Shown one piece after another: positions 5,869 through 19,617 of a DNA stretch of 44,213 bases. The notes below the pieces were generated by a model. It worked only from the letters and a program-made list of their open reading frames with translations. It did not search any database and had not been told where the DNA came from. The stretch is taken from contig CAIWFB010000336.1 of NCBI GenBank assembly GCA_903911825.1, positions 1 to 44,213 of the forward strand, read 5' to 3'. The position numbers and the translations under genes were made by a program. Each line of letters opens with the position of its first letter. Within the stretch, counting starts at the first letter, position 1. Origin of the DNA: an uncultured Verrucomicrobia subdivision 3 bacterium. GTDB lineage: Bacteria; Verrucomicrobiota; Verrucomicrobiia; Limisphaerales; UBA11358.

Positions 5869-8800
5869 ATGCAACTGGGCAGAACATTCAAAATCGTAAA
5901 AACGGCGACCTTCTTTATCCTACTGGGCTTATTTCCCAGCCTCGCCGCCACCGCACCGAGCCAACTGGTTTTCACAACTCAACCAGTGGGGAGCACGATT
6001 GGCGGCAATCTGGGGAATCTGACCGTGCAACTCGCCGATAAAGGTGGCACGAATGTTTTGCTCAGTGGCACGACCATCAAAATCGCGCTGAACAAAAACG
6101 GTGGATTGACGGGCGTGACCAACCTGAATACCGACGCCAATGGCAAGGTCACATTCAGCAACCTCAGCGTGAACCTTCCGGGAACGGGCTATGCGTTTAC
6201 GGCGGCAGCGACGGGTCTAAAAAGCGTGACCAGCACTAACTTCAGTGTAATCAAGGGTAATGCGACCATTGTAGAGACCACCTCGACCAATAGCGCCGTT
6301 TACGGACAAAGCATTACCTTCACAGCGACGGTCAAAGCCATGGCTCCGGCGACCAATCTCCCGACCGGCACGGTTACTTTCAAAGACGGCGCCCTTACGC
6401 TCGGTGTGGTCAGCATTAATACCAACGGCACGGCTACTTTCAGCACGAACAAAATTTCCGCCGCCACCGCCAGTCACATCATCGCGTCGGTTTATAGCGG
6501 CGACGCTAATTTCAATAGCAACACCGCCAGCAATCTGGTTCAGACCGTAGCGAAACTGTCGTTGACCGTTTCGGGGATTCTCGCCAGCAATAAGATTTAT
6601 GACGGCAATACCAACGCCGCCCTGAATTTCACTAACGCAACTCTCGCCACCCTGCTAACGGGCGATACCGTGACACTCACGACCAGCGGAGCTAAAGGGA
6701 TTTTTGTAGATAAGAAGGTAGGCAACGGAAAAACCGTCTCCGTTTCCGGCCTCGTCCTCGGCGGCAGCAGTGCCGCCAACTATGCCCTAAACGCTCCGGT
6801 GCTCACCGCGAATATTTCCGCCCGCAGCCTCAGCCTCACAGCTAGGGGCGTGAATAAAACCTATGACGGCACGGCTAACGCCACGGCTACGCTTACCGAC
6901 AATCGGCTGATCGGCGACGTTTTCACGAACGGCTATACCGCCGCCGCCTTCACGAATAAAAATGTCGGCACTGCGATCCTAATCAATGTCAACGGCTTGT
7001 TCATCGGCGGCACGGATGCAGGCAACTACACGTTGAGCAACCTGAACACTACCGCAAACGCCAACATCACACCCGCCTCCCTGACGGTTTCCGGCATTGT
7101 AGCCAGCAACAAGATTTACGATGCCACTACGAGTGCGACGCTCAATTTTACGAACGCTAATTTTGTCACGGTTTTCATTGGCGATTCCGTCACGCTTAAC
7201 GCCACGGCGGCCAAAGGAGCCTTTGCGAACAAGCTCGCGGCGACTGGCAAAACGGTTCAGGTTTCCGGTCTCACTCTCGGCGGCACCAACGCGGGAAATT
7301 ATCTACTCACGCAACCGACGACGATAGCCAGCATCACCCCGCGTCCGCTCGCCATCACCGCCAAGAGCGCGAACAAAGTTTATGACGGGACAACCACCGC
7401 CACGGCCACCTGCACCGACACGCGCGTGGCCGGCGATCTCTTGACCGATAGTTTCACCAATGCCGCCTTCGCCACCAAGAACGTTGGCACCAATCTGTTG
7501 GTGACGGTTTCTGGTCTGGCGGTGAGCGGCACGGATGCGGGTAATTACTCCCTCACTAATTTGAGCGCGCTGGCGACCAACAATATCACGCCAGCCACGC
7601 TCACGGTCATTGGCACTTTGGCCAACAATAAAGTTTACGACCGCACCACCAGCGCGACTTTAAATTTCAGCAACGCCACCCTCACCCCGGTTTGGGCAGG
7701 CGACGCCGTGACTCTGAATGCCGCAAGCGCGACCGGACTATTCGCTAACAAGACGGTCGGCACAGGCAAAACCGTGACCATTTCCGGTCTAACGATCACG
7801 GGCAGCAACTCGGTAAATTATAAATTAACTCAGCCCACGGCTACCGCTGACATCACCGCCCGCAGCCTCACACTCACGGCCAAGGGCGTGAATAAAGCTT
7901 ACGATGGTAACACCAACGCAACCGTCACACTGACCGATAACCGGATCGCTGGCGACGCGTTGACCAACAGCTATGCCAACGCCAGCTTCATCAGCCAGAA
8001 TGTCGGCACGAACATTTTGATCAATGTTTTCGGCCTTTCAGCTGCTGGAACGGATGCCACCAACTACGTTTTATCCGCGACGAACACCACCGCCACCGGC
8101 AATATTTCCGCGGTGACCTTGACCATCGCGGCGGCAAATCTGTCGCGCCCCTACGCCACAACGAACCCGGTTTTAATGGCGACTTATTCCGGCTTCGTCG
8201 CTGGCGAATCTTCAAGCAACTTGACCGGTGCGCCGGCGTTCACGACCACGGCCAAGACCAATAGCAATGTCGGGACGTATCCTATCACCATCGCCAAAGG
8301 TTCATTGTTCTCGGTGAATTACAGTTTAAAATTCACCAACGGCGTTTTGACGGTGACCAAGGCAGACACCGCCGCCTTGCTCTCCACGACGCTAAATCCA
8401 GCGCTCACGAATCAGAACATTACCTTCGCAGCGAATATCAAACCCCTTGCCACCTCGGTGTTGCCGCCAGTGGGCACGATTCAATTCAAATGTAACGGCA
8501 CCAATAAACTCGGCAACGCCGTCTCTGTGGCCACGAGCGGCTTGGCGAATCTCACCGTGCTGGCTTCGACTTTGGGTCAAAGCAATGCCGTCATCACGGC
8601 GGAATACTCTGATCCGGCGGGGAATTTTGCACCGAGCACGAACAGCTTGACGCAGGTCATCGTCAGCGTCGTGGTGCCGCCGGTGCCCAGCAAAATTTCG
8701 CTCGCGCCTTCTTTCGGCAACGGCACGGTCACGGCCTCACTTTCGGGCACCGCTGGCCAAACCTACGTCATCGAAGCCTCCACGGATTTGCTCCACTGGC

Positions 8801-8904
8801 AGGCGCTCTCGACGAACATTGCGGATGCGGCGGGCATCGTGTCGCTGGTAGATTCGAACGCCGTATCGTTCCCCAGCCGCTTCTACCGCGCATATTCGCC
8901 GTAA
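5869..8904 (+). CDS. secreted MBG/YDG-repeat exoprotein
   Basis: A 1011-aa protein with an N-terminal signal segment (about 1-28, hydrophobic FFILLGLFPSLAATA). It has an Ig-like part (about 30-230, including a Big-type PTGTVTFKDG segment), then six YDG-type units with KIYDGNT-like motifs near residues 242, 331, 415, 503, 588 and 676. These are followed by an MBG-like unit from about 750 (LSRPYATTNPVLMATYSGFV) and another Ig-like unit. A C-terminal module from about 941 reads QTYVIEASTDLLHWQAL ... FPSRFYRAYSP. Such proteins are exported and probably adhesive or surface-associated; no catalytic residues are seen. The C-terminal module recurs in the protein at 22822-25008 and may be a sorting or anchoring signal. 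Composition is extremely rich in T, N, A and S. A terminator follows. Confidence 0.85.
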   Translation: MQLGRTFKIVKTATFFILLGLFPSLAATAPSQLVFTTQPVGSTIGGNLGNLTVQLADKGGTNVLLSGTTIKIALNKNGGLTGVTNLNTDANGKVTFSNLSVNLPGTGYAFTAAATGLKSVTSTNFSVIKGNATIVETTSTNSAVYGQSITFTATVKAMAPATNLPTGTVTFKDGALTLGVVSINTNGTATFSTNKISAATASHIIASVYSGDANFNSNTASNLVQTVAKLSLTVSGILASNKIYDGNTNAALNFTNATLATLLTGDTVTLTTSGAKGIFVDKKVGNGKTVSVSGLVLGGSSAANYALNAPVLTANISARSLSLTARGVNKTYDGTANATATLTDNRLIGDVFTNGYTAAAFTNKNVGTAILINVNGLFIGGTDAGNYTLSNLNTTANANITPASLTVSGIVASNKIYDATTSATLNFTNANFVTVFIGDSVTLNATAAKGAFANKLAATGKTVQVSGLTLGGTNAGNYLLTQPTTIASITPRPLAITAKSANKVYDGTTTATATCTDTRVAGDLLTDSFTNAAFATKNVGTNLLVTVSGLAVSGTDAGNYSLTNLSALATNNITPATLTVIGTLANNKVYDRTTSATLNFSNATLTPVWAGDAVTLNAASATGLFANKTVGTGKTVTISGLTITGSNSVNYKLTQPTATADITARSLTLTAKGVNKAYDGNTNATVTLTDNRIAGDALTNSYANASFISQNVGTNILINVFGLSAAGTDATNYVLSATNTTATGNISAVTLTIAAANLSRPYATTNPVLMATYSGFVAGESSSNLTGAPAFTTTAKTNSNVGTYPITIAKGSLFSVNYSLKFTNGVLTVTKADTAALLSTTLNPALTNQNITFAANIKPLATSVLPPVGTIQFKCNGTNKLGNAVSVATSGLANLTVLASTLGQSNAVITAEYSDPAGNFAPSTNSLTQVIVSVVVPPVPSKISLAPSFGNGTVTASLSGTAGQTYVIEASTDLLHWQALSTNIADAAGIVSLVDSNAVSFPSRFYRAYSP
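6559..8115 (+). repeat. three tandem 519-bp higher-order repeats (A-B YDG pairs)
   Basis: Inside the exoprotein, units alternate between type A (TVSGILASNKIYDG...) and type B (RSLSLTARGVNKTYDG...). Each A-B pair is exactly 519 bp (173 codons): pair starts are at 6559, 7078 and 7597, and the array ends at 8115. The constant length with diverged DNA suggests old duplication of a two-domain block rather than recent slippage. Confidence 0.8.
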
Positions 8905-15614: not shown

Positions 15615-17354
15615 TTGAAACGTATCCTTTCTCTGTTCGGTCTGCTGCTGCTCGCCGCAACGATCCTTGGCGCAGCCACGCCATTTGAGCCCACCGCCCC
15701 CACGGGCCAGACACTCATCCATGATCCCTCCACCATCGTCCAAGATGGCGGACGCTACTATATCTTCGGCACCAAGCCCGGCATCAATGCCCGCTCGTCC
15801 ACCGACTTGCTGAATTGGGTCGCCGAACCGAACGTGTTCAAAAGCCCGCCCGCGTGGACGAAAACCGTCGCGCCCGGCTTCGACGGCTATTTCTGGGCAC
15901 CCGACATCATCAAGGTGAATGGAAAATTTCTCCTCTACTATTCCGTCTCCGCGTGGGGCAAGCAGACTTCCGCCATCGGCCTCGTCACCACACCCACGCT
16001 CGACGCCGCCGCCACCAATCACGTTTGGACCGATTGCGGCGAAGTCATCCATTCCACCAACGGCTACGCTTTCAACACCATTGACCCGAGCGTCATGCAA
16101 GATCACGACGGCAAACTGTGGCTCGCGTTCGGATCTTATTGGCAGGGGCTTTACCTCACCGAACTCGACCCGCAAACCGGCAAACGCGTCAGCACTAATT
16201 CTCCGTTGCATCACCTCGCGTGGAATCATTCCATCGAAGCCGCCTGCCTCACGCGGCATGGAAAATTTTATTACCTCTTCGTGAATTGGGGCCAATGCTG
16301 CAAAGGCACCAACAGCACCTACGAAGTCCGCGTGGGCCGCGCCGAAAATGTCACCGGCCCTTACCTCGACCGCGACGGCAAAGATCTGAAAGACGGCGGC
16401 GGCTCACCCTTCCTCCAAAGCCACGGACGCTTCTTCGGCCCCGGCCACATCGGCATTCTCGGCGGCGATGGCGACGCGCAACCCACCCGGTTCAGCTTTC
16501 ATTACTACGACGCTGACACGGCGGGCAAATCGCGCTTCGCCCTCGGCACTTTGGATTGGAGCGATGGCTGGCCCGTGGCCGTGACCGAGGCCGCCAACGA
16601 AGCTTGGAAATTAGTTTGGGCCGATGAATTCAACACCAACGGCACGCCCGATCCCGCGAATTGGAATTACGAACACGGCTTCGAACGCAATCACGAGGCG
16701 CAATGGTATCAGCCCGAAAATGCCGTCTGCACGAATGGCCTGCTCGTCATCACAGCGCGGCGCGAAACGAAACCGAATCCCCACTACGTCGCTGACAGCA
16801 ACGATTGGCGCAAAGAACGCGCGAATATCCACTACACCTCCGCCAGCCTCACCACGCGCCATTTGCGCGAGTTCAAATACGGCAAATTCGAGATGCGCGC
16901 GCGCATTGATACACGCTCCGGTAGTTGGCCCGCCTTCTGGACGCTCGGCGCCGAACGCGGCCACACCCACTGGCCCGCCGGCGGCGAAGTGGACATCATG
17001 GAATTTTACACCGGCACCGTGCTCGCCAACTTCGGCTACCAATTAGACCACCAGATCAAATGGCTGGCGGCCAAGAAACCCATCGCAGATTTCAATGACC
17101 CCGCGTGGACGGAAAAATTCCACACCTGGACCATGGTTTGGGACGAACAGAAAATGGACCTGCTACTCGACGGCCAACTGCTGAATCACCTCGACCTTGC
17201 CGAGGCCGACCACGCGGATGAGGGCAATCCCTTTCACCGCTCCGTTTACCTCATTTTGAACCAAGCCATCGGTGGCGATTCCGGCGGCGACCCGACACCG
17301 ACGACCTTTCCCGTCAAGTTTGAAGTGGATTGGGTGCGCGTGTATCAACGTTGA
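15615..17354 (+). CDS. secreted bifunctional glycoside hydrolase GH43-GH16
   Basis: A 579-aa protein from a TTG start with a signal peptide (LLLLAATILGAA). Residues about 30-325 are a GH43 five-bladed propeller (arabinanase/arabinosidase type), with likely catalytic residues D37 (HDPS), D157 (TIDPSV) and E208 (HSIEAA). From about 330 (KLVWADEFN) a GH16 jelly-roll domain follows, with ARRETKP, SGSWPAFWTLG and the active-site motif E458-V-D460-I-M-E463, ending in VDWVRVYQR. GH43 usually removes or cuts arabinose/xylose polymers and GH16 cuts beta-1,3/1,4-glucans or galactans. Both catalytic cores look complete, so the product may attack two linkages in one polymer. The fusion is uninterrupted in one frame. 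Confidence 0.88.
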   Translation: MKRILSLFGLLLLAATILGAATPFEPTAPTGQTLIHDPSTIVQDGGRYYIFGTKPGINARSSTDLLNWVAEPNVFKSPPAWTKTVAPGFDGYFWAPDIIKVNGKFLLYYSVSAWGKQTSAIGLVTTPTLDAAATNHVWTDCGEVIHSTNGYAFNTIDPSVMQDHDGKLWLAFGSYWQGLYLTELDPQTGKRVSTNSPLHHLAWNHSIEAACLTRHGKFYYLFVNWGQCCKGTNSTYEVRVGRAENVTGPYLDRDGKDLKDGGGSPFLQSHGRFFGPGHIGILGGDGDAQPTRFSFHYYDADTAGKSRFALGTLDWSDGWPVAVTEAANEAWKLVWADEFNTNGTPDPANWNYEHGFERNHEAQWYQPENAVCTNGLLVITARRETKPNPHYVADSNDWRKERANIHYTSASLTTRHLREFKYGKFEMRARIDTRSGSWPAFWTLGAERGHTHWPAGGEVDIMEFYTGTVLANFGYQLDHQIKWLAAKKPIADFNDPAWTEKFHTWTMVWDEQKMDLLLDGQLLNHLDLAEADHADEGNPFHRSVYLILNQAIGGDSGGDPTPTTFPVKFEVDWVRVYQR

Positions 17355-17564
17355 ACCGCCACCTTAGCTGGCAGCCAGCGCCACCGCCGACTTGCGACGC
17401 GAACCCCGTAAAGGGGCGTGGCCCCACGGGGCTTTACGCCCGCGACAGCGGAACTGACAGCGCCAACGGCGGTTGGCTCCGGCGAGAGGCTGTGTGAAAA
17501 CTCTTTCATCGTTTTGAAACTTCTAAGGTGGCGGGGCGTCTTTGCCAAGCATGAATTCCCGTCG
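17355..17564. repeat. dispersed-repeat-like intergenic segment
   Basis: The sequence between the GH43-GH16 stop and the 21-bp array contains a compound inverted repeat at 17408-17437 (GTAAAG ... CTTTAC around CGTGG-CC-CCACG). Its minus-strand translation contains SLSPEPTAVGAVSSAVAG, a string I associate with spurious ORFs repeated through related genomes. This is probably a dispersed non-coding element; copy number was not tested. Confidence 0.45.
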
Positions 17565-18068
17565 CCCCGTTTAGGGTTCTGGTCAGGAACCAAGTTGTTC
17601 CGGCGGGGAACTATTGTGTTTCGGTCAGGAACAATAGTGTTTCGAGCGGGAACCTTAGTGTTCTCGTCAGGAAGTATTGTGTTCTGGCCGGGAACAATAG
17701 TGTTTGGTGCGGGAAGTTTAGTGTTCTCCGCAGGAACCTTAGTGTTCTGGTCGGGAAGTTTAGTGTTTTCCCCGGGAACTATTGTGTTCGGAGAAAACCC
17801 TAAACTTCTTTTCAAAAAGAAGTTGGTTTCCGGGGCGGGAAGTCATTGGTTTGGCCCGCGAAGTCATTGGTTCGCGTCCGGAAAGTATTCATTTTCAACG
17901 GGAAGTCATTTGTCTGGCCCGCCAAAGTATTTGTTTCCGTCACGAAGTCATTTAACCCGCCGGGGAAAGTATTTGTTTTGGTCGGGAAGTCATTTGATGG
18001 CGGCGGGAAAGCACTTTCTTTTGAAAAACAACTTGGTTGGCGGGAGGGGAAAAAGCCTGGTTTTGCCA
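17565..18068. repeat. array of 24 in-phase 21-bp units
   Basis: Units of exactly 21 bp run without phase change for 504 bp. The first block (17586-17795) has consensus GGAA(C/G)nnTAGTGTT plus 7 variable bases. Two degenerate units (17796-17837) follow, then a second block (17838-18026) alternating GAAGTCATT and GAAAGTATT types. On the plus strand one frame stays open through the whole array (ORF 17418-18188), giving heptads such as GTIVFRS and GSHLSGP. On the minus strand two TTG-start ORFs (17345-17815 and 17812-18069), in different frames, give NTIVPGE/NTKLPDQ and NDFPTKT/NTFPGGL heptads. No ATG start with a ribosome site was found on the minus strand, so coding is unproven. There are no CRISPR-like spacers. 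Confidence 0.85.
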
Positions 18069-18191
18069 AAAAACCCTGTTTTTGACAGAAATGGGTCTAA
18101 ACAGGCTGCCAAAGGTAGGGCTGGGCGCGCGGCGCTGGGACTGGCGGGCGGTTTCCTACCGGGCACCTCGTCCCGCAGGGACTGTTGACAG

Positions 18192-18217
18192 TAGCCCGCA
18201 GTTTTAACTGCGGGCTA
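18192..18217. repeat. 26-bp palindrome
   Basis: TAGCCCGCAGTT and AACTGCGGGCTA are perfect inverted arms with a TT centre. A short T-run follows, so it could also terminate transcription from the array region. It ends 5 bp before the ATG at 18223, which argues against that codon being a real start. Confidence 0.7.
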
Positions 18218-18309
18218 TTTGCATGCGCGCCGTTGGCGCGAGGAAAAAAAGCATGGATTCCGTAAAAGGTGTCCGTCCCGGTCTAAGGCCAGCGACCAGC
18301 AGGAGTTCG

Positions 18310-18414: not shown

Positions 18415-19617
18415 TTGCGCAAAGCGGAATATTTTGAATTGCTCGTCCTGTTCTTCATCCAGGGCGCGGCGATGGCGATCTGGTTTGTGCCGCTGGGGCC
18501 GATTCTCGATGCGCACGGGTTGCACGGGATCAAGCCGTATGCGTTTGCGGCGTCGGCCATCGCGGCGTTCGTTTCGCCGTTGATGTTCGGCGCGATGGCA
18601 GACCGCCATGTGCCGCCCGCCAAAGTGCTCCGCTGGCTCGCGACGGCCACGGCCATCACGCTCACGGCGGTGGGCACGGCGATCAAATACGACGCGCACC
18701 CGTGGCTGGTGCTGTTGCTGATCCAGATCTATTACCTCGCTTACGCGCCGATGTTCAGCATCTCCTCGGCACTGGTGCTGGCGCGGTTGGCGGATGCGAA
18801 AAAGGAATACGGCCCCATCCGCTCGATGGCGACGATCGGCTGGATGGCGGGCGCGTTGATGGTGAGCGCGTTGAACGCGGACACGTCGCCCTACGCAGGT
18901 TATTACGCGGCGGCGATGTGGCTGTTGGTGGCGGGTTTCACGTTTTTTCTGCCGCAGTTGGAGGTGCCGAAATCGGCGGAGAATCTGGCGTGGCACGAGC
19001 GGTTGGGATTGGACGCGCTGACGTTGCTGAAGAACCCGCGCCATCGCGTGGTGTTCATCACGACGTCGTTGTTGAGCATTCCGCTGGCGGCGTTTTACCC
19101 GTATGCGCCGACGCATCTGCGGGCGCTGGGGTTCGACCACACGAGCGCGTGGATGAGTCTGGCGCAGGTGTCGGAAATCGTGGCGATGTTCAGTCTGGGC
19201 TGGCTGCTGTTCAACTGGCGTTTGAAATGGATCTTTGCGGCGGGGCTGGCTATCGGCGTGGTGCGGTTTGCGTTGAGCGCGTGGGATGAAAGATATTTTC
19301 TGCTCACGGGCATCATGTTGCACGGCGCGTCGTTCGCGCTGGTCTTCATCACGGCGCAGATCTATCTGGACCAGAATATCGAAGGCGCGTGGCGCACGCG
19401 GGCGCAGGCGCTGCTGTCGTTCATGAACGGCGGGATCGGCAATCTGATCGGCTATCTGGGCACGGGCTGGTGGTTCAACGCGTGCACGCGGGCGAGCGGC
19501 ACGCATTGGCCGTGGTTCTGGGGCGGACTCGCGGCGCTGGTGACGGCGGTGATGATTTATTTCCTGCTCGCGTTCCGTGAAAAACCCACGCCCACGGCAG
19601 CGGCGCTCACTCAATAA
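18415..19617 (+). CDS. MFS transporter, nucleoside permease (NupG-like) type
   Basis: About 400 aa with roughly twelve transmembrane helices. The conserved start YFELLVLFFIQGAAMAIWFV resembles NupG/XapB nucleoside:H+ symporters, and later segments such as YGPIRSMATIGWMAGAL and FMNGGIGNLIGYLGTGWW fit that family. The ORF is open from ATG 18223, and ATG 18253 has a fair ribosome site (GAGGA), but the first 60 or so residues are palindromic repeat sequence. I therefore take TTG 18415 (or GTG 18403) as the likely start. It probably imports nucleosides or related sugars and may serve the two exported proteins encoded just downstream. Confidence 0.8.
   Translation: MRKAEYFELLVLFFIQGAAMAIWFVPLGPILDAHGLHGIKPYAFAASAIAAFVSPLMFGAMADRHVPPAKVLRWLATATAITLTAVGTAIKYDAHPWLVLLLIQIYYLAYAPMFSISSALVLARLADAKKEYGPIRSMATIGWMAGALMVSALNADTSPYAGYYAAAMWLLVAGFTFFLPQLEVPKSAENLAWHERLGLDALTLLKNPRHRVVFITTSLLSIPLAAFYPYAPTHLRALGFDHTSAWMSLAQVSEIVAMFSLGWLLFNWRLKWIFAAGLAIGVVRFALSAWDERYFLLTGIMLHGASFALVFITAQIYLDQNIEGAWRTRAQALLSFMNGGIGNLIGYLGTGWWFNACTRASGTHWPWFWGGLAALVTAVMIYFLLAFREKPTPTAAALTQ

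Follow-up and report, generated by a model that had tools for sequence, protein, structure and literature searches.

Intergenic repeat arrays of unrelated sequence and common helical geometry in Limisphaerales-type Verrucomicrobia: a possible DNA platform

Between two plus-strand genes of an uncultured Verrucomicrobia subdivision 3 bacterium, coding for a GH43-GH16 protein (15615-17354) and a transporter of the nucleoside-symporter type (start at 18223 or 18253, end at 19617), lies a stretch in which short units recur every 21 bp. The first-pass annotation of the window (the whole stretch of 44,213 nucleotides that was analysed) left three readings for it, a heptad-repeat protein, a DNA-level structure and an iteron-like binding array, and the question raised by the locus is which of them applies. 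The 504-bp array in 21-bp phase that was reported there is borne out, as the exact phase holds across 17565-18068, degenerate units included, and the identities at lags 21, 42, 63 and 84 are 0.505, 0.576, 0.540 and 0.574, respectively, whereas shuffles that preserve dinucleotides give about 0.258 +/- 0.02 (z between 11.9 and 16.6, the highest being that of lag 42). The upstream neighbour is a fused glycoside hydrolase that directly precedes the array. Elsewhere in the window, 5869-8904 encodes a repeat-rich surface protein of 1011 aa with six YDG domains, two Big_3_5 domains and one MBG domain.

Approximately 24 units are in phase, 17 of which are clear (nine in block 1 and eight in block 2), and the starts of both blocks, at 17607 and 17838, are multiples of 21 from 17565. 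Block 1 spans ten units (17586-17795), nine of them clear from 17607, and has the consensus GGAA(C/G)NNTNGTGTT(C/T)NNNNC(G/A); its core words are present in both orientations, so that the reverse-complement words noticed earlier, such as CTATTG/CAATAG, are real. Two linking units (17796-17837) keep the phase and comprise one inverted unit, AACCCTAAACTTC, recognised in an inverted-repeat search as the partner of GAAGTTTAGTGTT, and a short hairpin, AACTTCTTTTCAAAAAGAAGTT. The eight units of block 2 (17838-18005) belong to the GGAAGTCATTTG and GGAAAGTATTTG types; the alternation at 42 bp proposed for this block holds for the most part, with GAAGTCATT and GAAAGTATT types following each other, and is broken by some exceptions. 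Degenerate units are located at both ends of the array (17565, 17586 and three terminal units at 18006-18068), followed by an A/T-tract flank on the minus strand (18069-18110) that is similar to the leaders of related arrays, whereas no strand is assigned to the other elements. The palindromes described on both sides were recovered by the inverted-repeat search, on the left as CGTAAAGGGGCGTGG / CCACGGGGCTTTACG (17407-17438) and on the right at 18192-18217, within a flank (18169-18240) that gives a sub-threshold match to the Acido-Lenti-1 family (27 bits versus a gathering score of 37).

A blastn comparison of the window array with its own genome recovered only the array itself. Similar arrays elsewhere, whose absence the first-pass annotation had named as its refutation, were looked for and many were found. 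A pattern search of the genus identified arrays of the same layout in the genome G016, for example with GGAACAATGATGTTCCGCTCG repeated, and when every lag between 5 and 63 was scanned without regard to sequence, periods of 21, 42 and 63 dominated in 729 kb of this genome (16-17 arrays) and in 268 kb of the window's own genome (3-4 arrays). Further arrays of the own genome are located at L062, L067 and L078, and one at L170 was found through the end box described below. Four arrays were present in 78 kb of G018, while none was detected in 169 kb of G001, the genome most closely related to the window's own; in the array-rich sampled genomes the density is about one per 20-90 kb. G016, G018, G014, G013 and G026 count as array-rich and G001 as array-poor. 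The unit words are unrelated between arrays, as exemplified by AAACGACTTCCCAAGACTGGG, CAATGGTGGCGGGATTGCTGG, AATTACATCGATGTTCCCGCG and CAGATGCGCCACTGGTGCCGC, among others. Most arrays of G110, which belongs to another family of the order, have a period of 41 with unrelated words (five contigs, L302-L304, L306 and L309, with a sixth, weaker array at L313), and a single one has a period of 42 (L312); 41 bp corresponds to four turns of 10.25 bp, which fits whole helical turns. Array period is thus characteristic of a genome and lies near whole helical turns. One 21-bp array (L080) proved to be coding, with PEVAPP repeats, and was excluded from the family.

Four contigs of G016 (L050, L052, L104 and L105) end inside arrays of one unit, ACATCGATGTTCCCGCGAATT, which indicates that the arrays break assemblies and that array counts are lower bounds. 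An ortholog comparison of the site upstream of the symporter was impossible in the nearest relatives, as their gene context differs; in one relative, G067, an array of different sequence is located upstream of this same symporter gene. The array and leader of L254, in a record titled Akkermansia muciniphila AH-24oct19-276, are identical to those of L262 in G085, a genome of the window's own order, and the public species label of this metagenome-assembled genome is therefore probably wrong. The window array belongs to a large family of intergenic arrays in Limisphaerales-type Verrucomicrobia that is apparently undescribed, and a literature search confined to open-access papers found no account of such arrays.

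In part of the family the array is preceded by an end box of conserved sequence, AACTGTC-N-CTTTTTGACC-A, and by a leader with T-tracts that extends for about 60-80 bp behind the box; arrays of this layout occur in many species. In a search of the genus for the box with at most one mismatch, an adjoining array was present at about half of 30 loci. In 84,980 species genomes the exact box occurs at 42 loci, and directly on its 3' side a 21/42/63 array was found at 15 of the 24 loci in Verrucomicrobia versus none of the 18 in other phyla; three Verrucomicrobia matches precede one conserved gene and are without an array. Within the order, 43 box matches were counted versus two control matches, ten of the 43, all in G247, being an insertion sequence end. 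These ten copies of the insertion sequence end (L292-L301), whose sequence GGTCTTTTTCACTGTCACTTTTTGACCAGAGGGGTTCTTCAGCAGAATC matches the box with one mismatch and has no array behind, were excluded. The array is located on the 5' side of the box at four loci in array-bearing genomes (L219/L225, L238, L261 and L207) and also at loci in G037 and G110, and no box was found in viral contigs. The box accompanies roughly six of the 16 arrays of the G016 sample. An array does not need the box, as arrays without it exist both in G016 and in the window, where the canonical box is not recognisable and the leader profile gives a non-significant E = 2.4. Acido-Lenti-1 hairpins (Rfam RF01687) occur as inverted pairs on the upstream side of the box in some arrays, no more than about 500 bp away (L094:17745-17939, L213:1747-1941 and L050:2180-2374); they resemble a REP-type repeat, and it is a weak match of this kind that adjoins the window array.

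The arrays hold their geometry while their sequence changes almost freely. Across nine pairs of related copies, 887 substitutions were counted versus only four gaps, of 1, 1, 21 and 21 bases. With positions counted from the box and taken modulo 10.5, the AA/TT peak lies at 7.5 in the arrays and at 7.3 in the leaders, and G+C steps are in antiphase with a peak at 2.2; the AA/TT phase is significant at a Rayleigh p of about 3e-6, or 5e-4 once the leader families are reduced to 17 units. Arrays of unrelated sequence have their dyad axes in common, 2.0 and 12.5 away from the box, and with families collapsed a random rotation never gave an equally sharp register in 5000 trials (p = 2e-4). The 10.5-bp spacing of the dyads is a mathematical consequence of one dyad within a 21-bp period and thus not independent evidence. 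The window copy shares the 21-bp period, the dyads and predicted curvature. According to a curvature model with a wedge table, 28 of 31 leaders are predicted to be curved, as is, strongly, block 1 of the window (z -7.2); the predicted curvature of the arrays is bimodal, and therefore curvature is neither a general feature nor by itself the principle of the arrays.

Our main reading, to which we give a probability of about one half, takes the array as non-coding duplex DNA that serves as a platform for a helically phased nucleoprotein and is recognised by its geometry. The array would be a string of half-sites of about 10.5 bp in alternating orientation, each 21-bp unit covering two helical turns, and its dyad axes on one helical face would form a row of two-fold axes suited to a dimeric or polymerising protein. 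Such a DNA-binding protein, or a nucleoid protein that wraps DNA, would load cooperatively in helical register and would read the helical phase and the rhythm of AA/TT versus G+C more than the exact bases. In many copies the loading point would be the end box with its curved T-tract leader, and the array sequence would be free to drift as long as the phase and the A/T rhythm hold. At these intergenic sites the arrays would probably contribute to local chromosome architecture, to insulation or to tethering. A period of 21 common to arrays with unrelated words and the fit of the 41-bp arrays to whole helical turns count for the platform, and the DNA-level or iteron-like reading of the first-pass annotation gains support from this common period together with the helical phase, the dyad register and the near-absence of indels other than whole units. 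The binding protein, its loading and the role of the array are what we infer beyond these features, the association with the box and the lack of RNA and codon signatures described below. Two observations that count against the platform are the absence of histone-fold proteins (PF00808 in none of the 49 genomes of the genus, with positive controls) and the absence of a recurrent gene among the gene families within 4 kb of the elements, and the lack of a box at the window copy weighs in the same direction; patchy presence, as in G001, argues against an essential role. The common register could also be an inheritance from one ancestral array instead of a product of selection. That the arrays represent a new class of chromosomal element specific to one group of Verrucomicrobia, in which helical geometry (period in whole turns, dyad register and A/T phase relative to an end box) is conserved, sequence is free and a putative wrapping or filament protein does the reading, is a more tentative proposal.

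The readings that place the function in a protein or in a folded single strand fare worse in the comparison of arrays. A heptad-repeat protein encoded on one or both strands could be suggested from the plus frame that is open across the window array (17418-18188, 256 aa) and contains G(T/S)(I/L)VF heptads, the changes in block 1 being partly synonymous; the open frame is not telling, however, since a stop-free 21-bp unit yields one for nothing, and it starts at a GTG inside a palindrome and is not shared by other arrays. Column variability in 31 related arrays has no codon rhythm, their stop-free frames keep no common register, with stops falling in different frames, and mismatches between related copies favour no codon position, so that this reading of the first-pass annotation is not supported and a protein origin is very improbable. 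Half-site words placed in a 21-bp unit give the plus-strand heptads of block 1 as a by-product, and the apparent synonymy on both strands arises because these words are used in both orientations. An array of RNA or single-stranded DNA hairpins, whether REP/BIME-like, attC-like or a structured non-coding RNA, would agree with the many units that form near-perfect stems of 5-7 bp with loops of 3-6 nt (for example GGCTGGA-ACC-TCCAGCC) and with the REP-like Acido-Lenti-1 hairpins beside some arrays, but the arms within units do not covary (1712 observed versus 1721 expected pairs, z -0.46, when arms of the same unit were compared with arms of different units in 41 arrays). G-T mismatches number 347 versus 349 expected from the columns, A-C mismatches are also at expectation, so that no excess of the former over the latter reveals an RNA strand, and no Rfam match inside the arrays reaches the gathering score. 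The lack of covariation and of a wobble excess is what independent half-sites in duplex DNA would show and speaks against selection on hairpins of RNA or of a single strand; hairpin arrays are accordingly quite unlikely. The unit vocabulary is palindromic despite the absent covariation of the arms.

The main rival, which is compatible with the platform, is a selfish or neutral satellite-like mobile element without host function, whose copies would spread within the genome, with the box as their recognised end and with 21-bp units made by a copying enzyme that has a two-turn ruler. The homology between copies often begins exactly at the box (-2 to +1), a single genome may hold several copies of one leader type, the distribution is patchy, and units are often homogeneous near the leader and degenerate far from it, all of which would be expected of such an element. 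The flanking genes, counted from crude gene calls, show no preferred orientation (8 convergent, 7 divergent and 8 tandem), which speaks against a role as promoters and would suit an architectural as well as a selfish element. However, no terminal inverted repeat, sharp second end or gene in cis was seen, the arrays inspected having one sharp end, at the box, and no inverted box copy at the far end; in some cases the array is found on the opposite side of the box, and a ruler alone leaves the equal AA/TT phase and dyad register of unrelated words unexplained. A mobile satellite is thus possible, if on balance doubtful. An open reading frame beside a 21-bp array in G016 (L020:1643-2632) resembles by eye a RAYT-type Y1 transposase, and REP-like palindromes, GCCGGCATCCTGCCGGC, are located near it. 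An ordinary minisatellite made by replication slippage, with 21 bp arising by chance or from a coding origin, would account for array lengths that change by whole units, but not readily for the single period of unrelated arrays in one genome (21 in most and 41 in another) or for the conserved phase and register relative to the box, and we regard it as unlikely.

Bacterial repeats are usually recognised by a common sequence, and the arrays described here, being of unrelated sequence, agree in period, phase and register. As this agreement is one of geometry and not of sequence, sequence-based annotation would miss the family. If a protein reads the geometry, as the platform proposes, the arrays would be natural substrates for studies of shape-based DNA recognition and of chromosome architecture in Verrucomicrobia, whose nucleoid proteins are little known; if the arrays are mobile, they would display a repeat-making mechanism with a helical ruler. 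Under either reading they break genome assemblies.

Several known systems share part of this organization. The plasmid partition centromeres built of iterons, such as parC of ParR systems, tubC and the omega heptad arrays, are loaded cooperatively by a protein and have one fixed recognition sequence and an adjacent par operon. Like them, the arrays are intergenic, consist of short repeats at helical spacing with direct and inverted half-sites, and agree with iteron-type centromeres or origins in this spacing, by their period (21) and AA/TT phase (10.5); unlike them, they occur many times per genome with words that differ from array to array, no single recognition sequence and no par or rep neighbour, the window array being flanked by the GH43-GH16 and symporter genes. 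CRISPR arrays also combine a leader with regular units, and a conserved leader, a regular unit length and, in some arrays, homogeneous units near the leader are found here as well. However, CRISPR arrays consist of identical repeats with unique spacers, whereas the present units vary throughout and, at 21 bp, are far too short. No gene family recurs within 4 kb of the elements, and no cas gene was noticed among the neighbouring ORF clusters. The opposition of AA/TT and GC at about 10 bp is typical of nucleosome-positioning DNA and is matched by the antiphase of AA/TT and G+C at 10.5 bp, but the arrays are tandem and anchored at a box, and PF00808 is missing from the genus, as noted above. Bacterial VNTR/MIRU minisatellites are likewise tandem, intergenic and variable by whole units; their loci have a common unit sequence, whereas the loci of this family agree in period and phase only.

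REP/BIME elements with RAYT transposases are dispersed, intergenic, palindromic and present in many copies, are known in Verrucomicrobia (Opitutus terrae) and are defined by a conserved palindrome of 20-40 nt with a GTAG or CGTC tag (PMC3733652). The arrays are similarly dispersed, intergenic, palindromic and multi-copy, but keep neither a sequence nor the complementarity of the arms (z -0.46), only the period and the phase. For each of the known kinds compared here, at least one defining feature is missing from the arrays, and the arrays belong to a general kind that can be described as a helically spaced repeat array.
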